Virus record (IMG/VR): IMGVR_UViG_3300027736_001324
Coordinates: 1-64,000 of that record
Length of the DNA: 64,000 nt
From: a virus
Reading direction: 5' to 3' (one strand)
This document shows positions 29,209-38,391 of the stretch, in pieces. The position numbers and the translations under genes are program-made. The notes under the pieces were generated by a model. That model made no database searches. It was not told the origin of the DNA and was given only the letters and a program-made list of their open reading frames with translations. Within the stretch, counting starts at the first letter, position 1; every line of letters begins with the position of its first letter.

Positions 29209-32200
29209 TTAAACCTGAGAATACTTTAATATTTTGTCGGAGATATTGTTACCATCTCTAATAGCAGATATCATCGAATCAAATTTATCTTCCATGAGAT
29301 CGTGTATTCCTGCTAATATTTCAGCAGACTGGTCTACTTTGGAACTTGATATGTTATCATTTGCCATTACAGTAGACAATGGTTCTTTCTTTGGAGGGTT
29401 AGTTTCTTGTTCTGATTTTTCTACTCTAATCTTTTCACCTGGGTTCAATGGAACTGCTGCTTCTCTTAAGCCAGCTTCAGCTAGATTTACATGTACCCCG
29501 CCCGGTCTTGGCTCAAATACGCCGCCGTCAAATGCATTTAGTTGACCATGAAAATGTCCACCTGTTCGGAATGCGCCCGAAGTATCATTGTATTCATCTT
29601 TAACTAAATCTAGTCCCAATGCTTTTAGTTGTGATTTTATTTTCTCACCTTCTTCTTTTGAAGGGGTTTTATTTAGAGAAAAGTCAAATGCTTTTCCTTT
29701 AGTATGCTGCGATTTTGGAGTATTTTCAGTATGATAAACATCATTAAATCCAGTGAATTGTGAAAACCCTGGAATAGTTTCCTGAACCTTTTTTGCTATA
29801 TCAATAAGTTTAGGATCAATATCTCCGTTATTTTTCTGAAGGTCACGGCCCGGGCTAAAAATCAGTCCTATCTTCTTAAGCATATCCGTACCTGCTTTAA
29901 TCATCCCTCCCGAAGTAGATGCTTGTGGTACAGGGGCTGAACCTGATGCTCCACTGCCCGCAGCAGTGGCCGGTGCGCCGGCCGGCGCAGTTGTTGATCC
30001 ATCGCCGCCGGGCGCCGGTGCAATTGCCGAAAGTATTTGAGACAGTACGTTAGGTAACATATCTGTTACCTTATTCATACTAATAATTAGTTTGTCTGAT
30101 GTTTTAGTTTGTTTCTCTAATAATTTATTATTGTCTTTAGATAAATCGTTGTTTATTTTTCCTAATTCAACCGTCTTAGCTGATACATCAATTGATCCAG
30201 AAAAGTTAGAATTAAGTTTCAATATCTGAGCATACCGTTGATCATTATCACCCTTGGCACCAGTACCACCTATCATGCCACTAAGTACATCCAATGGCAT
30301 AATTGCTTCTGGCTTGCCTTTTTCACCTACTGTAACTGTCGTACCTTTTTCAGTACCCGGAACAAGGCCTCCCTTTTCTTTCTTAGGTGGTATATCTGCT
30401 GCAGGTGTTGCCTCAGTGGGGGTTGCTTTTGCCCAGATTCTCTCCCTATTTGCAGCAGCAGAACGTCCTTGGGGAGAATTATCATAAAGCGGTGCTGTAA
30501 CAGGTACTGTCTGGTTTGTCCGCAATGCCTGGGCTTGTGCAGTTGTTGTAACCGGTGCTGCAACAGGTGCTGCAACAGGTGCTGCAACAGGTGGTTTGGC
30601 AGTTGTTGTAACCGGTGCTGCTGCAGGTGCTTCCTCTGCGGAGTCGTCAATTGCGTCATTTGCATTTATAGTTTTTACTGGGTTTTTTCCTCTACCTACA
30701 TATGCATTCATTGTACCTTCTTGAGTGCTTGATCCCGATTGTGTGGCTATTTTTAATTTGTTAGATTTAGCTAATTTTAATTGTTCCTCTACTTTTGCAT
30801 AATCTGCATTTTCTTTTTTAAGTACTGCTTCTTTTTCAGCCGTTTGTTTATCTACTAATGCCCTTTCAGCTTCAATTCTGTCTTTAGTAAGTTTGGTTTG
30901 TTTTTCTTGAAGTGCTGCTAATTCTTTAGATACATCGGTACCGTTTGCTCTTTTCTTTTCTATTTGTTTGGCTTCTTCACCCAAAGCAACTTGTTTTGCC
31001 AAGAAAAGTTGATTTTGCTGGACACGTTGAGCCTCAAACTTTTCTTTAAAGTCCTCGGTTGATCTTCCCATCTTATCTTCGAGTGCAGCTTTATCTTCTG
31101 TCAACTCTTTTTGTTTTACTAATAATGCTTTTTCTTTTTCTAATGTTTTTACACGATCACCCCACAATGCCAATTCTTCACGATTTGCAGAAGTGTTTTC
31201 TCCTTTTTTTATTTTTTCTTCAACTGCTGCTTTTCTTGCGTTAGCACTATCTATTTGTTCTTGTTTTTTGTCTATGTTTATTCCTATGTTTTCAGCCTCA
31301 CCTCTAGTACCTTTAAATGCAGCATTATACATTTGTTTAGCGGCTGTCAACATTGAAGATGCAGCTTTACCAAACATACCGCCGGCTTCTTTCATCTGAT
31401 TAGCTGCGCCTAATTGACCATTTAATAATTGAGTTTGTTTAGCTATTGCTTCATCCTGTGTCTTTCTCCCTGTTTCTACATCACTGGTGGTTCTTGGATC
31501 TTTAGCAACTCGTGATAGCATTTGATCCATTGCCTTCTCATCAAATGGTTTACCTTTATTTTTAGGATCTTTTTCCCATTCTAGCCTAAGTTTGTTTGCA
31601 TTATCAAAGGTATTAATACCATCTAATAATTTTGGAATGTCAAGGTCTGCAAGTCCACTAATAGCATCTGATTTTATTCTTGCTAGTGGTGCTAATTCTT
31701 TAAAACCAGCTCTTAATTCGTTACTCAATGTCCCCAATCTAGTCTGAGCAGTACCTTCTCCCTTTCTATATTGTTCTATCGTTCCACCGATCATTCTTAT
31801 AGCCTTAGCAGAAGAAGAATCAACTATTTGTCCGTTATTAGCCGCCGCTTTAGCTGTACCGGTTGCTAATTCTTTTTGACCAATAAGTTCTAACTTAGAC
31901 ACTAGATCCATCTGGCGTTGTAATGATAATACTCTTAACTCAGCTTCTTTATCTCCTCCCTTTGCTTTTTCTTGTTCATCAAATATAGCTGCACGTAATT
32001 CAGATTGAGCCATTGCAAGGTCACGGGCATTTTCTTGTTCTTTTCGTGAGGCTCCGGTCAATGCTGCTGTTTTGTCTAACTCACTAATATAATTTTGAGT
32101 ACCTTTAATTAAATCTTGTTTTGATTTACCTTCAAGTAATCCAAATCTAGCCTGCATTGCCATGTATTTTTGAGCATGTTCCATTTGAGCATTTTGGCTA

Positions 32201-33597
32201 ATCCCCATCTTCTCAAATGTTCTACTCATTTTGCTGTTTATTAAGCCACCTGTAACTTCAATAAAACTCTTAGCGCCGGCCATCGTAGTAGAGCCAAACA
32301 TTGCTATTTCTCGGGTGTTGCTTGATAATATTTTATTAAGTTTTTCAAACTCTTTAATAGTCAACCCTACCGATTTAAGATCATCTATTAAACCGGTAAC
32401 ACCTCTTGCCCCGGTAACTGATGCTTCACCTAATTGCAAGAAATTTTTAAATGCTTCATCTTCAAGTGCAGCACGGTCTTTGTTTAGTTTAGCATCTCGT
32501 CTTATAATTTCCGCTTCAGCTTGAGAAGCATATCCAAGAATAGCCAACAACCCACCTATTGCTACTGCCAACAATCCAATTGGGCCAGTTGCTAGTGTTA
32601 CTTGAACACCTACTGCCATCATAGTGGCACCAAAATCAACCATACCACCACCTGTTTTTTCTAATGATGATGCATATGCCTCTGCTTGTGCAGAAACCAT
32701 GGCAGCTGCCACGCTTTGACCTCTTACTCCATCTAATAACGCATCTTCATATGCTATTAGACCTTTATAAGTTCCTACTATTCCGGCTTTTAAAAAGTCA
32801 AACGCAGCCGTTAAAACAAAGCTACCGGCGGCTATGGCTCCTTTTTTACCAAACATATCTTTGAATTCTTCCAAAGCTTTTTCAGCTTTTTCTCTGGCTT
32901 CATTTTCTGCTTTTATTTTTCTTAATGAGGCTTCTTGTTCTTTGTTTAATTTGATAGTCGTGTCTATTATTTTATTATTACTATCAACATAACGACCCAT
33001 TGAAGCTAACTGTTGCTTATATAATTTTTCTTGGTCCATTGCAAGTTTAGCATTTTTTGCATCTGTCCCATATTTTTTTTGTAGATCAGGACTTTCAGCA
33101 AGACCCTTTTGCAAATCTTCTATTAATTTTTTTTCAATTGATTCACGTTCATTAGCTAATTGATGTAATTTACCCTGACTATCTTTTACTAATCCTAAAC
33201 TTTCAAGTTCATACTTGGCGCGCCGCTCAAAAGTTTCTTTTTGAGCCTCATTAATTTTGTTAAGTTCGGCATCATATGCATTGTCTTTTTGAATTTGTCG
33301 TTGAGTTAATTGGTTGGCTTCAGCATCTAGTTCTTTTTGACGTTCTATTTGCTTGTCTTTATCACTTAATGAATTCCATATAGCCTTTGCTTCGTCGTCA
33401 CGGGCATCCTTTAAAGCCTGCGCAGCTTGTTCACGTTCTTTTTGTTCACGTCGGCGGAGAAATTTTTCTTCCTCAGTTAGGACTTCTGCTTCTGCAATTG
33501 CTTCTCTAGTGCTATCATTTCTGGAACCCAGACCTTCAGCCAACAATTGAAGTTGTTCAAGAATTGATCTAGATAGATTGTCATTTTCTATTGGCAT
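29209..33597 (-). CDS. Tape measure protein with C-terminal M15-type peptidase domain
   Basis: 1462 residues from ATG 33597 (MPIENDNLSRSILEQL). The in-frame start at 33732 would add 45 residues lying across the promoter region and is rejected. Residues about 20-250 and 800-1010 are long charged coiled coils. Residues about 250-360 are hydrophobic with membrane-like segments (for example ATGPIGLLAVAIGGLLAILG). VTVGEKGKPEAIMPL near residue 1120 is a typical tape measure motif. The C-terminal part has SQHTKGKAFDF and TGGHFHG (about residues 1293-1348), the metal-ligand pattern of M15 D-Ala/L-Ala peptidases, which cut peptidoglycan. Tape measure proteins set tail length and enter the cell with the DNA. 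Proline/alanine repeats (PVAAPVAAPVAAPV) lie near residue 1040. T4 gp29 is far shorter and lacks a peptidase domain. Confidence 0.8.
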   Translation of the reverse strand: MPIENDNLSRSILEQLQLLAEGLGSRNDSTREAIAEAEVLTEEEKFLRRREQKEREQAAQALKDARDDEAKAIWNSLSDKDKQIERQKELDAEANQLTQRQIQKDNAYDAELNKINEAQKETFERRAKYELESLGLVKDSQGKLHQLANERESIEKKLIEDLQKGLAESPDLQKKYGTDAKNAKLAMDQEKLYKQQLASMGRYVDSNNKIIDTTIKLNKEQEASLRKIKAENEAREKAEKALEEFKDMFGKKGAIAAGSFVLTAAFDFLKAGIVGTYKGLIAYEDALLDGVRGQSVAAAMVSAQAEAYASSLEKTGGGMVDFGATMMAVGVQVTLATGPIGLLAVAIGGLLAILGYASQAEAEIIRRDAKLNKDRAALEDEAFKNFLQLGEASVTGARGVTGLIDDLKSVGLTIKEFEKLNKILSSNTREIAMFGSTTMAGAKSFIEVTGGLINSKMSRTFEKMGISQNAQMEHAQKYMAMQARFGLLEGKSKQDLIKGTQNYISELDKTAALTGASRKEQENARDLAMAQSELRAAIFDEQEKAKGGDKEAELRVLSLQRQMDLVSKLELIGQKELATGTAKAAANNGQIVDSSSAKAIRMIGGTIEQYRKGEGTAQTRLGTLSNELRAGFKELAPLARIKSDAISGLADLDIPKLLDGINTFDNANKLRLEWEKDPKNKGKPFDEKAMDQMLSRVAKDPRTTSDVETGRKTQDEAIAKQTQLLNGQLGAANQMKEAGGMFGKAASSMLTAAKQMYNAAFKGTRGEAENIGINIDKKQEQIDSANARKAAVEEKIKKGENTSANREELALWGDRVKTLEKEKALLVKQKELTEDKAALEDKMGRSTEDFKEKFEAQRVQQNQLFLAKQVALGEEAKQIEKKRANGTDVSKELAALQEKQTKLTKDRIEAERALVDKQTAEKEAVLKKENADYAKVEEQLKLAKSNKLKIATQSGSSTQEGTMNAYVGRGKNPVKTINANDAIDDSAEEAPAAAPVTTTAKPPVAAPVAAPVAAPVTTTAQAQALRTNQTVPVTAPLYDNSPQGRSAAANRERIWAKATPTEATPAADIPPKKEKGGLVPGTEKGTTVTVGEKGKPEAIMPLDVLSGMIGGTGAKGDNDQRYAQILKLNSNFSGSIDVSAKTVELGKINNDLSKDNNKLLEKQTKTSDKLIISMNKVTDMLPNVLSQILSAIAPAPGGDGSTTAPAGAPATAAGSGASGSAPVPQASTSGGMIKAGTDMLKKIGLIFSPGRDLQKNNGDIDPKLIDIAKKVQETIPGFSQFTGFNDVYHTENTPKSQHTKGKAFDFSLNKTPSKEEGEKIKSQLKALGLDLVKDEYNDTSGAFRTGGHFHGQLNAFDGGVFEPRPGGVHVNLAEAGLREAAVPLNPGEKIRVEKSEQETNPPKKEPLSTVMANDNISSSKVDQSAEILAGIHDLMEDKFDSMISAIRDGNNISDKILKYSQV

Positions 33598-33622
33598 ATT
33601 AATTTTACCCGTGTTTTTAACT

Positions 33623-33648
33623 AATAAATAGTTATATATGTATTTATT
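33623..33648. promoter_or_regulatory. Face-to-face pair of late-type boxes
   Basis: AATAAATA occurs on the plus strand at 33623-33630 and on the minus strand at 33641-33648, forming an 8-base palindrome with a 10-base centre. The plus box points to gp26 (ATG 33681) and the minus box to the tape measure gene (ATG 33597). The two transcripts would cross each other over a few bases. Confidence 0.5.
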
Positions 33649-33680
33649 GTTTGTAAAAATACATTTTTGGAGAAATATCA

Positions 33681-34502
33681 ATGACAAACCCACTAAGACA
33701 ATACTTTCGTAGACCTGCACTTTATCTAACATTACCTAGTAGAGGTAAATTTTACCCTGAAGGAGCATTAGAAATGCCGGAAAACGGAGAACTTGCGGTA
33801 TATCCTATGACTGCAATTGATGAGATTACTAGTAAAACCCCCGATGCATTGTTTAACGGTAACGCAGTACCTGAAATTATCAAAAGTTGTGTCCCGGGAA
33901 TAAAAGACCCGTGGGCAGTTCCCAGTGTAGATATGGATGCTATTTTGGTTGCTATTCGTGCTGCTACTAGCGGTAATGATTTGGAAATCAGTAGCACTTG
34001 TCCTAAATGTGAAGAAGAAAGTAAGTATAATATCAACTTGGGATTTTTACTAGGTAGTATTAAAGCCAGCGACTATAATGAAGTGTTTCACATGGGGGAA
34101 TTAACGCTTAAATTTAAACCATTAAATTACACTCAGGTCAATGAAGGCAATATGGGGCAATTTCTTATACAACGTGAAATAAACGGATTAGAAGGAATGA
34201 CAGATGATACTGAAAGAAGCAAAGTATCCGGTGAAATTATGAAAAAATTGACCCAGATGAATATGGAATTAATCGGTTCAGTAATCGAATCTATAACAAT
34301 CCCAACTGAAGTGGTAACTAATAGAGAATTTATTAGTGAGTTCCTATCAGGATGTGACAGGGCTACTTATGAAAAAATTCGTCAACATGTATTAAGACTA
34401 AGAGATAGTTCAAATATTAAACCACAACATATCAAATGTGTAAGTTGCTCACATGAATATGATCAAGCACTAGTGTTAAACGTTTCTGATTTTTTCGAGT
34501 AA
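33681..34502 (+). CDS. 26: Baseplate hub assembly protein, T4 gp26-like
   Basis: 273 residues. Characteristic features are the N-terminal LTLPSRGKFYPEG, a YPMTAIDEI strand, and the C-terminal IPTEVVTNREFISEFLSG plus CDRATYEKIRQHV helices, which fit the T4 baseplate protein gp26 family. Two CxxC pairs (C107/C110 in STCPKC and C253/C256 in KCVSC) look like a zinc-binding ribbon. In T4, gp26 is needed for hub assembly but is not clearly a structural part of the finished hub. TTGGAGAAAT lies 8 bases before the ATG. The last codons include T-TTT-TTC (34490-34496) just before the TAA, the site of a probable -1 frameshift into the next ORF. The gene is on the opposite strand from its neighbours on both sides. 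Confidence 0.85.
   Translation: MTNPLRQYFRRPALYLTLPSRGKFYPEGALEMPENGELAVYPMTAIDEITSKTPDALFNGNAVPEIIKSCVPGIKDPWAVPSVDMDAILVAIRAATSGNDLEISSTCPKCEEESKYNINLGFLLGSIKASDYNEVFHMGELTLKFKPLNYTQVNEGNMGQFLIQREINGLEGMTDDTERSKVSGEIMKKLTQMNMELIGSVIESITIPTEVVTNREFISEFLSGCDRATYEKIRQHVLRLRDSSNIKPQHIKCVSCSHEYDQALVLNVSDFFE
34490..34496 (+). promoter_or_regulatory. Candidate -1 ribosomal slippery site
   Basis: The sequence T-TTT-TTC is in the correct phase with the gp26 frame. The -1 frame has a TGA at 34487-34489 and the gp26 frame stops at 34500-34502, so any shift between the two frames has to occur in this window, which is almost exactly the heptamer. Confidence 0.6.
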
Positions 34503-34726
34503 GGCTTCTGTCGCTTATCCCCGAGAAGATACAGAAGCTGCTAGACAGCATGGATGAAGAAACAACAACAATTAAGAAAAATGCATTAAAGTTTTCTTGG
34601 TATATGCGGGGCGGAGTATCCTATGAGGATGTACTTAATATGTCTGAATCGGAAAGAGAAGCTATAAGTCAAATCATAGATGAGAACTTGGAAACTACTA
34701 AGAAAACTCAGATGCCATTCTTCTAA
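34496..34726 (+). CDS. gp51-like small ORF, probably expressed as a -1 frameshift extension of gp26
   Basis: The -1 frame after the slippery site reads on for 76 codons. It contains a helix (SLIPEKIQKLLDSMDEE), then ALKFSWYMRGGVSYEDVL and a C-terminal ETTKKTQMPFF, which I recognise as a small conserved protein following gp26 in T4-like phages and tentatively liken to the gp51 hub catalyst. An internal ATG at 34550 would give 58 residues, but it lacks a good ribosome site and would discard the conserved-looking helix upstream, for which no start codon exists in this frame. A frameshifted product would be about 348 residues. Identity as gp51 is uncertain; that it is coding is likely. Confidence 0.65.
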   Translation, partial: RVRLLSLIPEKIQKLLDSMDEETTTIKKNALKFSWYMRGGVSYEDVLNMSESEREAISQIIDENLETTKKTQMPFF

Positions 34727-35224
34727 TCCGTAATTATTCATTTATCAACTTTGGGATGTTTCATTAAGAGATGAACTTCGTTCATCTAAGAACTCACTTC
34801 GTTCGTTCTTATTTCTTTCAGTATACGGAATCGTTTAAGACTTTAATTGTATCGGATATATATTGCCGATTAGAAGCCATGGTAGTGCAAATTTGCACCA
34901 CCAATGGGAAAGGTATGTTTGCCATGACCGTCGTCCAGTGTTATCTATCCCCCAATTAATCGCCTATTTCTGACACTAACTGCTACCGGTTGCTCTGTAA
35001 AGTATTATGGGACTGTAGTGAAGCTAACAACTTTAGTTGTTTCTTCCGCAACGCACATTCTATGAAATCAAGATAAAGTATTCATAGACTTGTTGAAGGT
35101 TCGCTTTGCCGATTGCCTTCTCGGTATACCCATAGTTATTGCTAACTATGCTTACTCCAGATCCGTCAGCACAGCACTACCTGTACAAACTCAAGGAGGA
35201 CTCACAAACTGAGCCAACGAATTT
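34727..35224. ncRNA. Candidate large structured RNA (strand uncertain)
   Basis: About 500 bases without a convincing ORF, visibly richer in G and C than its surroundings and dense in inverted repeats: 34769-34776 with 34780-34787 (8 pairs); 34788-34793 with 34805-34810 (6 pairs); 34877-34907, a long hairpin with one mismatch and one bulge; 35026-35031 with 35036-35041 (6 pairs); 35060-35066 with 35081-35087 (7 pairs); 35131-35138 with 35143-35150 (8 pairs). Candidates are one of the large phage-associated ornate RNAs (for example the GOLLD or ROOL classes), or a group I intron relic linked with the nearby homing endonuclease. I cannot recognise a diagnostic core of any class. Confidence 0.5.
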
Positions 35225-35805: not shown

Positions 35806-36549
35806 TCAGGCACTGATAAATTTACACTTGTCACCGTGAAACATTGTATAATGATTTTTTGCTATTGTCCGATTACAATGTTCACATACTTTTTGATTTT
35901 TTAGTTTCTTCATAGGATTATTTTCACCTGAGTTTTTTAATCTTGTCATTGCTTTATTGTAATCAGACGCAGGAATTCCATACATTGGATTTTTATCACC
36001 CCTCATTCGGTCAGACAATTTTGAATTTCCAGTGAGAGATTTGCTAATATTTTCATTATGAGAAGCTGGTCTATTTTTTGCATATTTTTGCACACCTATA
36101 CTCTGATTCTGTTTTCTAATATCATCATGCTTTTTCCCATAATGGGGAGACTTCTCTCTAACTTTACCATACATGGGATTTTTATTACCTGTTCTAGCTT
36201 TACTTTTACGTTGTCTAGTAATTGAATTTTCTTTAACACCGTACCGATTGTATAATCCGTCTCCGTTGTGTTGGTTAAAACTCATTGCATCATCTTTGGC
36301 ATTGAGTGATTTAAGAAGTACACGCTCTAACTCGGCAACATATCCTGCCTCGCCTATGTGTAATATTTCAAAAGTCCACTCATTTCTGTTTTTCAATATC
36401 ATTGGTTTGACTTCTTTACTGGAACATATATATTCTTCATGGCGTGATGGATTCCAACCGTTGCGTATTTTAGATCCAATATACCACCGTCCGGATGGAA
36501 TATGAATCCACTTATAGATATAAGGTATAGTTTTGTTATAAATAGTCAT
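35806..36549 (-). CDS. GIY-YIG homing endonuclease with NUMOD repeats
   Basis: 247 residues. The GIY-YIG nuclease domain is N-terminal: PYIYKWIHIPSGRWYIGSKI (residues 9-28) holds the degenerate first Tyr strand and the YIG motif, with a probable catalytic Glu in VAELERV and NQHNGDG downstream. NUMOD3-like DNA-binding motifs (NPMYGKVREKSPHYGKKH, NPMYGIPASDYNKAM, NPMKKLKN) fill the middle. The C-terminus is C222-x2-C225-x12-H238-x3-C242, the same spacing and similar sequence as in the HNH enzyme at 22370. It is a free-standing mobile gene. A GATAAATA box and a leader hairpin (36579-36616) lie upstream, and AAGGAGC lies 9 bases before the ATG. Confidence 0.88.
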   Translation of the reverse strand: MTIYNKTIPYIYKWIHIPSGRWYIGSKIRNGWNPSRHEEYICSSKEVKPMILKNRNEWTFEILHIGEAGYVAELERVLLKSLNAKDDAMSFNQHNGDGLYNRYGVKENSITRQRKSKARTGNKNPMYGKVREKSPHYGKKHDDIRKQNQSIGVQKYAKNRPASHNENISKSLTGNSKLSDRMRGDKNPMYGIPASDYNKAMTRLKNSGENNPMKKLKNQKVCEHCNRTIAKNHYTMFHGDKCKFISA

Positions 36550-36627: not shown

Positions 36628-38391
36628 TTATTCTATGTTTACTGAGGTATCATACGTAGTAAAGCCATGCTCCTTAACTACACGAAGGACGTTAGGTACC
36701 CTATTTACTAATTCCTCCTTATGGGAAACAAGCCAGATTGATTTGTGTCTGCGGCGAGTCATCTCTTTTAGAATTGCAAGAGAATTCTCAACTCCAACAC
36801 CATCAGTGCCGTTATCTAATAGTTCGTCAATGAACAACAAATTGATTGGGGAATACAAGTTTTCCCAAACATCACGGAATGCCCAAGACAATGATAGAAT
36901 AACTCTATTCATTTCTCCCCTTGATAAATTATAGAAATCCATTTCACGACCCAATTCCGTAATCTCAACTTGTAAATCATTCTTAAATATTACTTGATGT
37001 GGCAATCCAATCTTATCTAAGTAATGTGTCAATCTACCATTCAAATATGATAGATTCTGGTCAATAATCTTTTTACGAACAAAGCTATCCTTGCTAGTTA
37101 AAATATCAAGCAAGAACTTTTGGTGTTCCATTGTGCGTGTCAATTGATTAATTCTGTCAAAGTTAATCTCTTGCAATGCTTGGTTCTCCATCTCTGAAAT
37201 CTGTTCACTATACGGATCAACTTCTTCGCCTTTACGTTCAATATCTTTAATAAGATTCTCAAGTTGGCTACTGTGTTTGATTGCTTGTGCTTCAGTATCA
37301 TAATGAGTAGTTGGCATTGCACCTAATGCACCCAAGTCCTTTAATGCTTGAGTATGTTCCATGAATTGTTTATTGATAGTTAAAACTTGAAATGCTGCTT
37401 CATGTGATGCTTTTATCTTCTCATCCAACACACTTTCATGCTTTTGATCATGGAACTCTTGACCACAAGCATAACATTTGTGGTCACGCAAATCACTAAT
37501 TTCTGTTGTTAGTTTATTAACTAATTTTTGTTCTTTGGCTTCGTCAGCTACACAACGAGCAATTAGTTTATTGAGGTCATCAATAGTCTTGCGCTTTTCA
37601 TTGTATGCTGTTAAATCTTTGTGAGCCTGTAATTCATTAGCAATATCAATAGTGATTAGTCTTTGATAATCAATAGCAAGACGTTCTAAATCTTCATCGT
37701 GCTTCATCTTCCACAATTTCTGTCTACGTTTAGTAGAATCAATTTGTTCTTTTACACGCTTATTGGCTTCCTCAATTGCTTTTACTTTGAATTCTTCTTG
37801 CTGAATATCATCTTTGCTATCTTTAACCAATCCCTTAATCACTTCTGCTTTTTCTGAAAGCAAGGTGATACCCAATAATTGTTCAATGATAGCACGTTGT
37901 TCATTATTTTTCAATGCAAGAAATGGTTCAGAATAGGTGTTAAGTGCCACGATATGTTTAAACATATCACTACTCATGTGGATCACTTTTTCAATCGCAG
38001 CTTGTGTTTCTTTGTTCTCGCCCTGTGCGTCATCCAATCCTTTTTGTAAATCACTATTTACATAGAATCGTAGGATGTTGGGCTTACGTCCACGTTCAAT
38101 CTTATAATCTATCCCATTAACACTAAACTCTAGTGTTACCATCATGTTTTTACCATTGGTACGATTAACTAGATTATCTTTACGAATACTGTTAATGGGA
38201 ACACCAAACAATGCATAACTCAATGCTTGGATGAGTGATGTTTTACCCGTACCATTACGAGCGCCATCACCACCTAAGTCTAGATTTTCACCTAGAATAA
38301 GTGTTAGTTCCTGTCTGTCAAAGTTGACTGCTTGTGTTACTTGTCCGATTGATAAAAAATTACGGAGGGTGATATTCTTCAGAGTTATCAT
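36628..38391 (-). CDS. 46: Recombination endonuclease subunit gp46 (SbcC/Rad50 family)
   Basis: 587 residues. Walker A is GENLDLGGDGARNGTGKT (residues 34-51). A coiled-coil arm is split by a zinc hook, CYACGQ, near residues 307-312. The ABC signature LSRGEMNRVILSLS is near 485, Walker B LLFIDELLDN near 515, and the H-loop WLVSHKEEL near 550. With gp47 it forms the complex that processes broken DNA ends for recombination-dependent replication in T4. Its ATG overlaps the gp47 stop (ATGA at 38388-38391), a sign of translational coupling and fixed subunit ratio. Confidence 0.95.
   Translation of the reverse strand: MITLKNITLRNFLSIGQVTQAVNFDRQELTLILGENLDLGGDGARNGTGKTSLIQALSYALFGVPINSIRKDNLVNRTNGKNMMVTLEFSVNGIDYKIERGRKPNILRFYVNSDLQKGLDDAQGENKETQAAIEKVIHMSSDMFKHIVALNTYSEPFLALKNNEQRAIIEQLLGITLLSEKAEVIKGLVKDSKDDIQQEEFKVKAIEEANKRVKEQIDSTKRRQKLWKMKHDEDLERLAIDYQRLITIDIANELQAHKDLTAYNEKRKTIDDLNKLIARCVADEAKEQKLVNKLTTEISDLRDHKCYACGQEFHDQKHESVLDEKIKASHEAAFQVLTINKQFMEHTQALKDLGALGAMPTTHYDTEAQAIKHSSQLENLIKDIERKGEEVDPYSEQISEMENQALQEINFDRINQLTRTMEHQKFLLDILTSKDSFVRKKIIDQNLSYLNGRLTHYLDKIGLPHQVIFKNDLQVEITELGREMDFYNLSRGEMNRVILSLSWAFRDVWENLYSPINLLFIDELLDNGTDGVGVENSLAILKEMTRRRHKSIWLVSHKEELVNRVPNVLRVVKEHGFTTYDTSVNIE

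Follow-up and report, generated by a model that had tools for sequence, protein, structure and literature searches.

In phage lambda (gpG/gpGT) and in P2 (E/E′), a short protein is accompanied by a longer one that is extended through a frameshift (Xu, Hendrix and Duda 2004). For T4, gp26 and gp51 have been described as hub assembly chaperones within a hub pathway that was left unresolved (2010 T4 review, PMC3004832). Passages in two later papers, both citing Vladimirov 2022, bear on relatives of this pair: some T4-like phages carry a short tail assembly chaperone (TAC) gene together with a longer, fused one and use no frameshift (PMC10885494, PRFect), and poly-T −1 signals are placed in T4-like TAC-N genes (PMC12846349, phage Adele). 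The first-pass annotation of the DNA studied here had known of no description of T4-type gp26 and gp51 as frameshift-linked chaperones, but, going by these citing passages, Vladimirov et al. 2022 had proposed T4-like TACs. The central idea—a frameshifted T4-like TAC—is already published, and our locus is a new example of a known device. The abstract by Vladimirov, Gautam and Davidson (Virology 2022, 566:9-15) is said to name genes 26 and 51 as the TAC pair, TAC-N and TAC-NC, and frameshifting is there reportedly conserved in several T4-like groups. New here are a jumbo-phage lineage, invariance statistics for the slip site, a GGAGGG element in cyanophages, modest evidence for hairpins, and lineages with altered sites.

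The locus lies in the window, by which we mean the whole 64,000-nt stretch that was analysed, part of a 263.7-kb viral record. Here, −1 programmed frameshifting at the end of a gp26-like gene very probably yields a short and a long TAC form, as in lambda G/GT. The case is built from sequence: a slip site and its conservation, a constrained −1 frame, a single gene copy, and homology to gp26 and gp51. The features concerned are the following:

33681–34502, plus strand: gp26-like gene (T4_baseplate family), encoding the short form of 273 aa, a predicted TAC-N
34490–34496, plus strand: slippery heptamer T TTT TTC in −1 frameshift phase (X XXY YYZ), one codon before the zero-frame stop
34490–34726, plus strand: −1 frame extension (FF, 76 codons and a stop), conserved, with dN << dS
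34500–34502, plus strand: zero-frame stop TAA of the short form, one codon past the heptamer
34503–34539, plus strand: possible stimulatory hairpin with arms at 34503–34511 and 34531–34539, starting 7 nt after the heptamer
34550–34552, plus strand: first −1-frame ATG, from which alone the small ORF could be started separately (58 aa)

The product of 33681–34502 matched PF12322 (T4_baseplate) in Pfam with 78.9 bits at a cut-off of 24.5 (E 5.8e-22) and PHROG150 ('baseplate hub') with E 1.5e-20, and no other PF12322 gene was found in the 263.7-kb record. An AlphaFold2 model of the short form (pLDDT 86.5) resembled the T4-type hub assembly proteins of many phages when searched with Foldseek against BFVD, where its matches consisted solely of T4-type hub proteins and uncharacterised proteins. 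The latter include proteins of 380–690 aa from phiEaH2, Special G, RSF1 and phiRSL1 that share the gp26 fold at a TM of about 0.5 and are possibly unrecognised TACs of those phages. The homolog in phage CBB is annotated as a 'structural protein', and the window region had no nucleotide match in the phage collection searched. T4-type gp51 was likewise modelled with AlphaFold2 (pLDDT 84.2) and showed a helical C-terminal extension. A fold search returned no PDB match at E <0.2 for either the short form or T4-type gp51, and a PDB sequence search gave no relatives; since the two predicted structures match no solved structure, they match no solved TAC, and the window short form has no detectable fold likeness to those TACs.

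Within T4 itself, gp26 and gp51 are homologous over 192 columns (hhalign, E 3e-19). PF12322 matches gp26 as well as residues 1–201 of gp51, a 249-aa protein that is a full-length gp26 paralog with a C-terminal extension and is encoded divergently from gene 26; on the 282 columns of PHROG150, gp26 is covered to 235 and gp51 to 280. The −1 ORF of cyanophages matched PHROG150 columns 231–280 together with PHROG634 ('baseplate hub assembly catalyst'), and its match to the gp51 C-terminus was clear (E 7e-8). Searches of Pfam and PHROG with the window extension gave no significant match. Compared directly, extensions of the window type showed weak similarity, with P 0.005 against the gp51 C-terminus and P 2e-4 to 9e-4 against the cyanophage extension (reversed controls, P 0.7–0.9). 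Because the direct similarity to gp51 is weak, homology of the window extension to the gp51 C-terminus is transitive, by way of the cyanophage extension; the fused profiles of the window and cyanophage families aligned over 280 columns (E 1.6e-17), Phe-Phe upon Phe-Phe.

Judged by these alignments, the small ORF is probably the counterpart of the C-terminal extension that separates the long gp51 from its short paralog gp26; T4 gp51, for its part, is a long form that occurs already fused. The earlier description of the small ORF as gp51-like was too broad: its likely equivalent is that extension alone, gp51 being a gp26 paralog along its full length. Copy numbers agree with such an assignment. 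PF12322 genes number one each in the window genome and in 10 jumbo phages, and two each in T4, Aeromonas phage 31 and Campylobacter phage CP220, and nearly all genomes with a single PF12322 gene have the frameshift layout.

The 3′ end of the gp26-like ORF reads GAT TTT TTC GAG TAA, with the heptamer exactly where the first-pass annotation had put it, at the gp26 end and in correct phase, and with the −1-frame TGA just before it (34487–34489). The motif as such is weak evidence, TTTTTTC being about as common as expected by chance in the 64-kb window (18 occurrences vs 18.8), so that conservation must carry the case for frameshifting. Of the 90 ORFs in the window that reach 60 aa, only two combine a phased slippery heptamer at most 45 nt from the stop with a −1 extension of 100 nt or longer; the second (31059–31241) runs antisense to the presumed tape measure gene.

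To gauge conservation within the lineage, we compared 30 IMG/VR loci encoding gp26 relatives of 100% to 33% identity. In all 30, T TTT TTC leads into a −1 ORF that starts Phe-Phe-Arg. The same layout occurs in nine finished jumbo-phage representatives (Atu_ph07, Phosso, PA5oct, 121Q, Vibrio 2.275.O, GAP32, Munch, CBB and SNUABM_19), with XacN1 carrying an equivalent T TTT TTT, and the site is identical in cyanophages S-PM2, P-SSM2 and Sf-FS3. More distant loci, collected with cyanophage and Cygsa01 queries, have the heptamer in 96 of 97 cases, the single exception (L162) being disrupted upstream yet reading T TTT TTT at the junction. Taken together, these relatives comprise metagenomic viruses, jumbo phages and cyanophages with protein identities as low as about 20%, and hardly any of them lacks the heptamer. 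Separately, one locus (L051) has a one-base disruption in mid-gp51, far from the junction and irrelevant to the slip site.

Codon usage at the junction is equally rigid. In 100 distinct heptamer sequences—which, being related, do not give independent counts—TTT is the first Phe codon in 100 and TTC the second in 99, while the TTT:TTC ratio elsewhere in those genes is 705:305. The preceding codon (AGT, AAT, GAT, TCT, CAT, ACT, GCT or TAT) ends in T in 100 of 100; re-pairing in the −1 frame calls for just such a wobble T, held constant over eight different residues. The final C of the heptamer and the G after it also encode the −1-frame Arg, so that the protein alone could hold these two bases. 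Of the three elements that the first-pass annotation had proposed to follow in relatives, the heptamer is the one conserved; the gp26 stop lies anywhere from 3 to 33 nt past it, and the upstream −1 TGA is not a conserved feature, since the −1 frame is open upstream in several relatives, including L009 and L012.

The −1 frame beyond the heptamer is under purifying selection, with a dN/dS of about 0.05–0.25 in close pairs. It begins FFRVRLLSLIPEKIQKLL and, as had been noted at first reading, offers no ATG, GTG or TTG ahead of 34550; the 76 codons that had been called conserved-looking are indeed kept in relatives. A third-position excess phased to the −1 frame is already seen in the 15 codons ahead of the first ATG, and the zero-frame tail past the heptamer is short and variable across relatives. 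The predicted fusion of gp26 and the extension would comprise 348 aa (about 39 kDa).

Elements that might stimulate slippage differ between the groups. In most marine cyanophages (L066–L145), GGAGGG occurs 10–15 nt upstream of the heptamer within the gp26 coding sequence, and its Glu codon is GAG in 35 of 38 cases vs 22% elsewhere in the same genes, which suggests a Shine-Dalgarno frameshift stimulator of the kind that dnaX exemplifies; the window lineage has no such GGAGGG or upstream Shine-Dalgarno sequence. Both the window lineage and the cyanophages have a possible stem starting about 7 nt past the heptamer, with paired cells and covariation above those of shuffled or slid controls and few pairs changing on both sides. 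For the window hairpin, 88.9% of cells are paired in 10 relatives and the covariation score exceeds all 500 shuffles, whereas both sides changed in only two of nine pairs, and RNAalifold kept seven pairs with no compensatory change. Its folding energy is not exceptional (z −0.44), and hairpin stability was therefore dropped as evidence of frameshifting. As a stimulator, the stem downstream of the heptamer is suggestive only.

An invariant T TTT TTC would go unexplained if the small ORF were a gene in its own right, read either from ATG 34550 or through termination-reinitiation close to the gp26 stop, and we consider this account unlikely. GenBank does list separate ORFs in cyanophages and jumbo phages, and in the majority of marine cyanophage loci an ATG stands 5 nt downstream of the first base of the gp26 stop codon; yet there the GGAGGG precedes this ATG by about 25 nt, a spacing too wide for initiation, and is near the heptamer instead. 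TAATG overlaps in 121Q and Cygsa01, the second of which lacks a canonical heptamer, would suit reinitiation, but in the window lineage and in L146–L161 no start codon occurs for about 50 nt past the gp26 stop, and the −1 frame is conserved from the heptamer onwards. We also rejected ATG 34550 as the true start, for it is not conserved (L009, L011 and L015 have other residues there) and the −1 coding pattern extends upstream of it. Within the window's own lineage, the small ORF has no conserved start and the heptamer is not lost from loci in which both proteins are intact. In a distant lineage, the marine cyanophages have the ATG past the gp26 stop yet keep the heptamer, and Cygsa01 has lost its canonical form.

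Slipping by RNA polymerase rather than by the ribosome could give the identical long protein from shifted mRNAs, and six consecutive T's might promote it. Runs that support transcriptional slippage are, however, usually longer than six T's, and the strict codon phase, the fixed wobble T, the cyanophage GGAGGG and the possible downstream hairpins all point to the ribosome, which makes this route very improbable. We find it scarcely credible that the layout arose by chance, through decay or recent splitting of a gene or through faulty assembly, as conservation refutes this: the same arrangement recurs in dozens of independent contigs and in finished phage genomes, and the −1 frame shows dN << dS. 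Conservation thus strongly supports the −1 frameshift and the lambda G/GT-like short and long layout that the first-pass annotation had put forward.

Under −1 frameshifting, most ribosomes would stop at 34500 and release the 273-aa short form (TAC-N, equivalent to T4 gp26), and a minority would slip back by one base at 34490–34496, bypass the stop in the −1 frame and complete the 348-aa long form with its C-terminal extension (TAC-NC, equivalent to T4 gp51). We infer that such slippage occurs, at a rate leaving the long form the rarer product, and, from T4 genetics and the lambda analogy, that the pair may act as tape-measure chaperones. If lambda gpG/gpGT is taken as the model, coating of the tape measure protein would fall to the short form, and the rarer long form would use its extension to bring in subunits of the tail tube or the hub.

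The presumed client is encoded next door, and further genes follow downstream:

29209–33732, minus strand: long coiled-coil protein, presumed tape measure, divergent neighbour of the gp26-like gene; likely start 33597; 1462–1507 aa
35225–35785: RusA-like resolvase gene, on one side of the homing-endonuclease-like gene
35806–36549: homing-endonuclease-like gene (PHROG655, E 2e-4)
36628–38391: SbcC/gp46-like gene, on the other side of the homing-endonuclease-like gene

Size and composition point to a tape measure at 29209–33732, which gave no Pfam match above the cut-off and no PHROG match. The first-pass annotation was right about adjacency and divergence, and a similar divergent neighbour accompanies the gp26 gene in L001–L007, L009, L015 and L028; the identity of the protein as a tape measure is presumptive. 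Near its C-terminus, an M15-type peptidase-like motif can be discerned by eye (SQHTKGKAFDFS...GGHFHGQL). Just past the −1 ORF, at 34770–34815, are two adjacent small TTCG-loop hairpins, GATGAACTTCGTTCATC and AAGAACTCACTTCGTTCGTTCTT, which perhaps mark a transcript end; GATGAACTTCGTTCATC is not repeated elsewhere in the window.

Outside these groups, the slip site itself varies. PhiM9 has T TTT TTG and phiM12 has T TTT TTT. TTTTCA replaces the canonical heptamer, with the −1 extension retained, in Cygsa01 (L054; AGC ATT TTC ACC TAATG), Salmonella phage Vi01 (L171; ATT TTC ATT TAA) and Aeromonas phage phiA8-29 (L176; CTT TTC ACT GTC TGA), and these lineages are candidates for a non-standard slip site or for a switch to reinitiation. 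In Bacillus phage SP-15 (KT624200; L165/L177), the gp51-like extension SYYIPGMTWEATESMAIFERKEMY follows GAA TTT TTT CAC in the +1 frame, so that a +1 or −2 shift would be needed and not a −1 shift. Evenly balanced, in our judgement, is the broader reading that a short and a long gp26-family chaperone are a conserved trait of T4-related phages whose route to the long form has changed repeatedly. The routes would then comprise the heptamer with GGAGGG in cyanophages, the heptamer with a possible hairpin in the jumbo lineage of the window, T TTT TTG in phiM9, TTTTCA in Ackermannviridae, a +1 or −2 shift in SP-15, a stop-start overlap in Cygsa01, and two genes in T4 and Campylobacter phages.

Such natural variants (with or without an upstream Shine-Dalgarno sequence, with one gene or two, with altered slip sites) offer material for testing how the ratio of short to long chaperone governs tail assembly in T4-like phages, where understanding of the hub chaperones is still poor. 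The annotation of the present region is also corrected, and with it that of many jumbo-phage and cyanophage genomes, in which the extension figures as a hypothetical gene of its own or as 'gp51'. Databases give the name 'gp51' to the matching cyanophage small ORF.

Set beside lambda and P2, the window pair is alike in that the extension cannot be started separately and in its linkage to the tape measure. Lambda G/GT, however, lies upstream of the tape measure in one operon, whereas the window gene is adjacent but divergent; a TAC gene directly upstream of the tape measure and on the same strand is the usual arrangement, although not a universal one. T4 gp26 and gp51 belong to the same family, with the window short form resembling gp26 and the predicted long form gp51, but T4 encodes the two in two divergent genes with no frameshift, where the window has one gene and a slip site. 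The Adele-type phages (Vandenendeviridae/Andersonviridae) likewise end their TAC-N gene in a poly-T slip site, and their conserved −1 ORF is often mis-annotated as a separate gene, as in phages of the window kind; they differ in being another phage group and in their slip sequence, GTTTTT (PMC12846349). Closest at the junction are cyanophages S-PM2, P-SSM2 and Sf-FS3, which share with the window T TTT TTC, Phe-Phe-Arg and a stop one codon later; cyanophages mostly have GGAGGG and a post-stop ATG, whereas the window lineage has neither and carries a longer and diverged extension.
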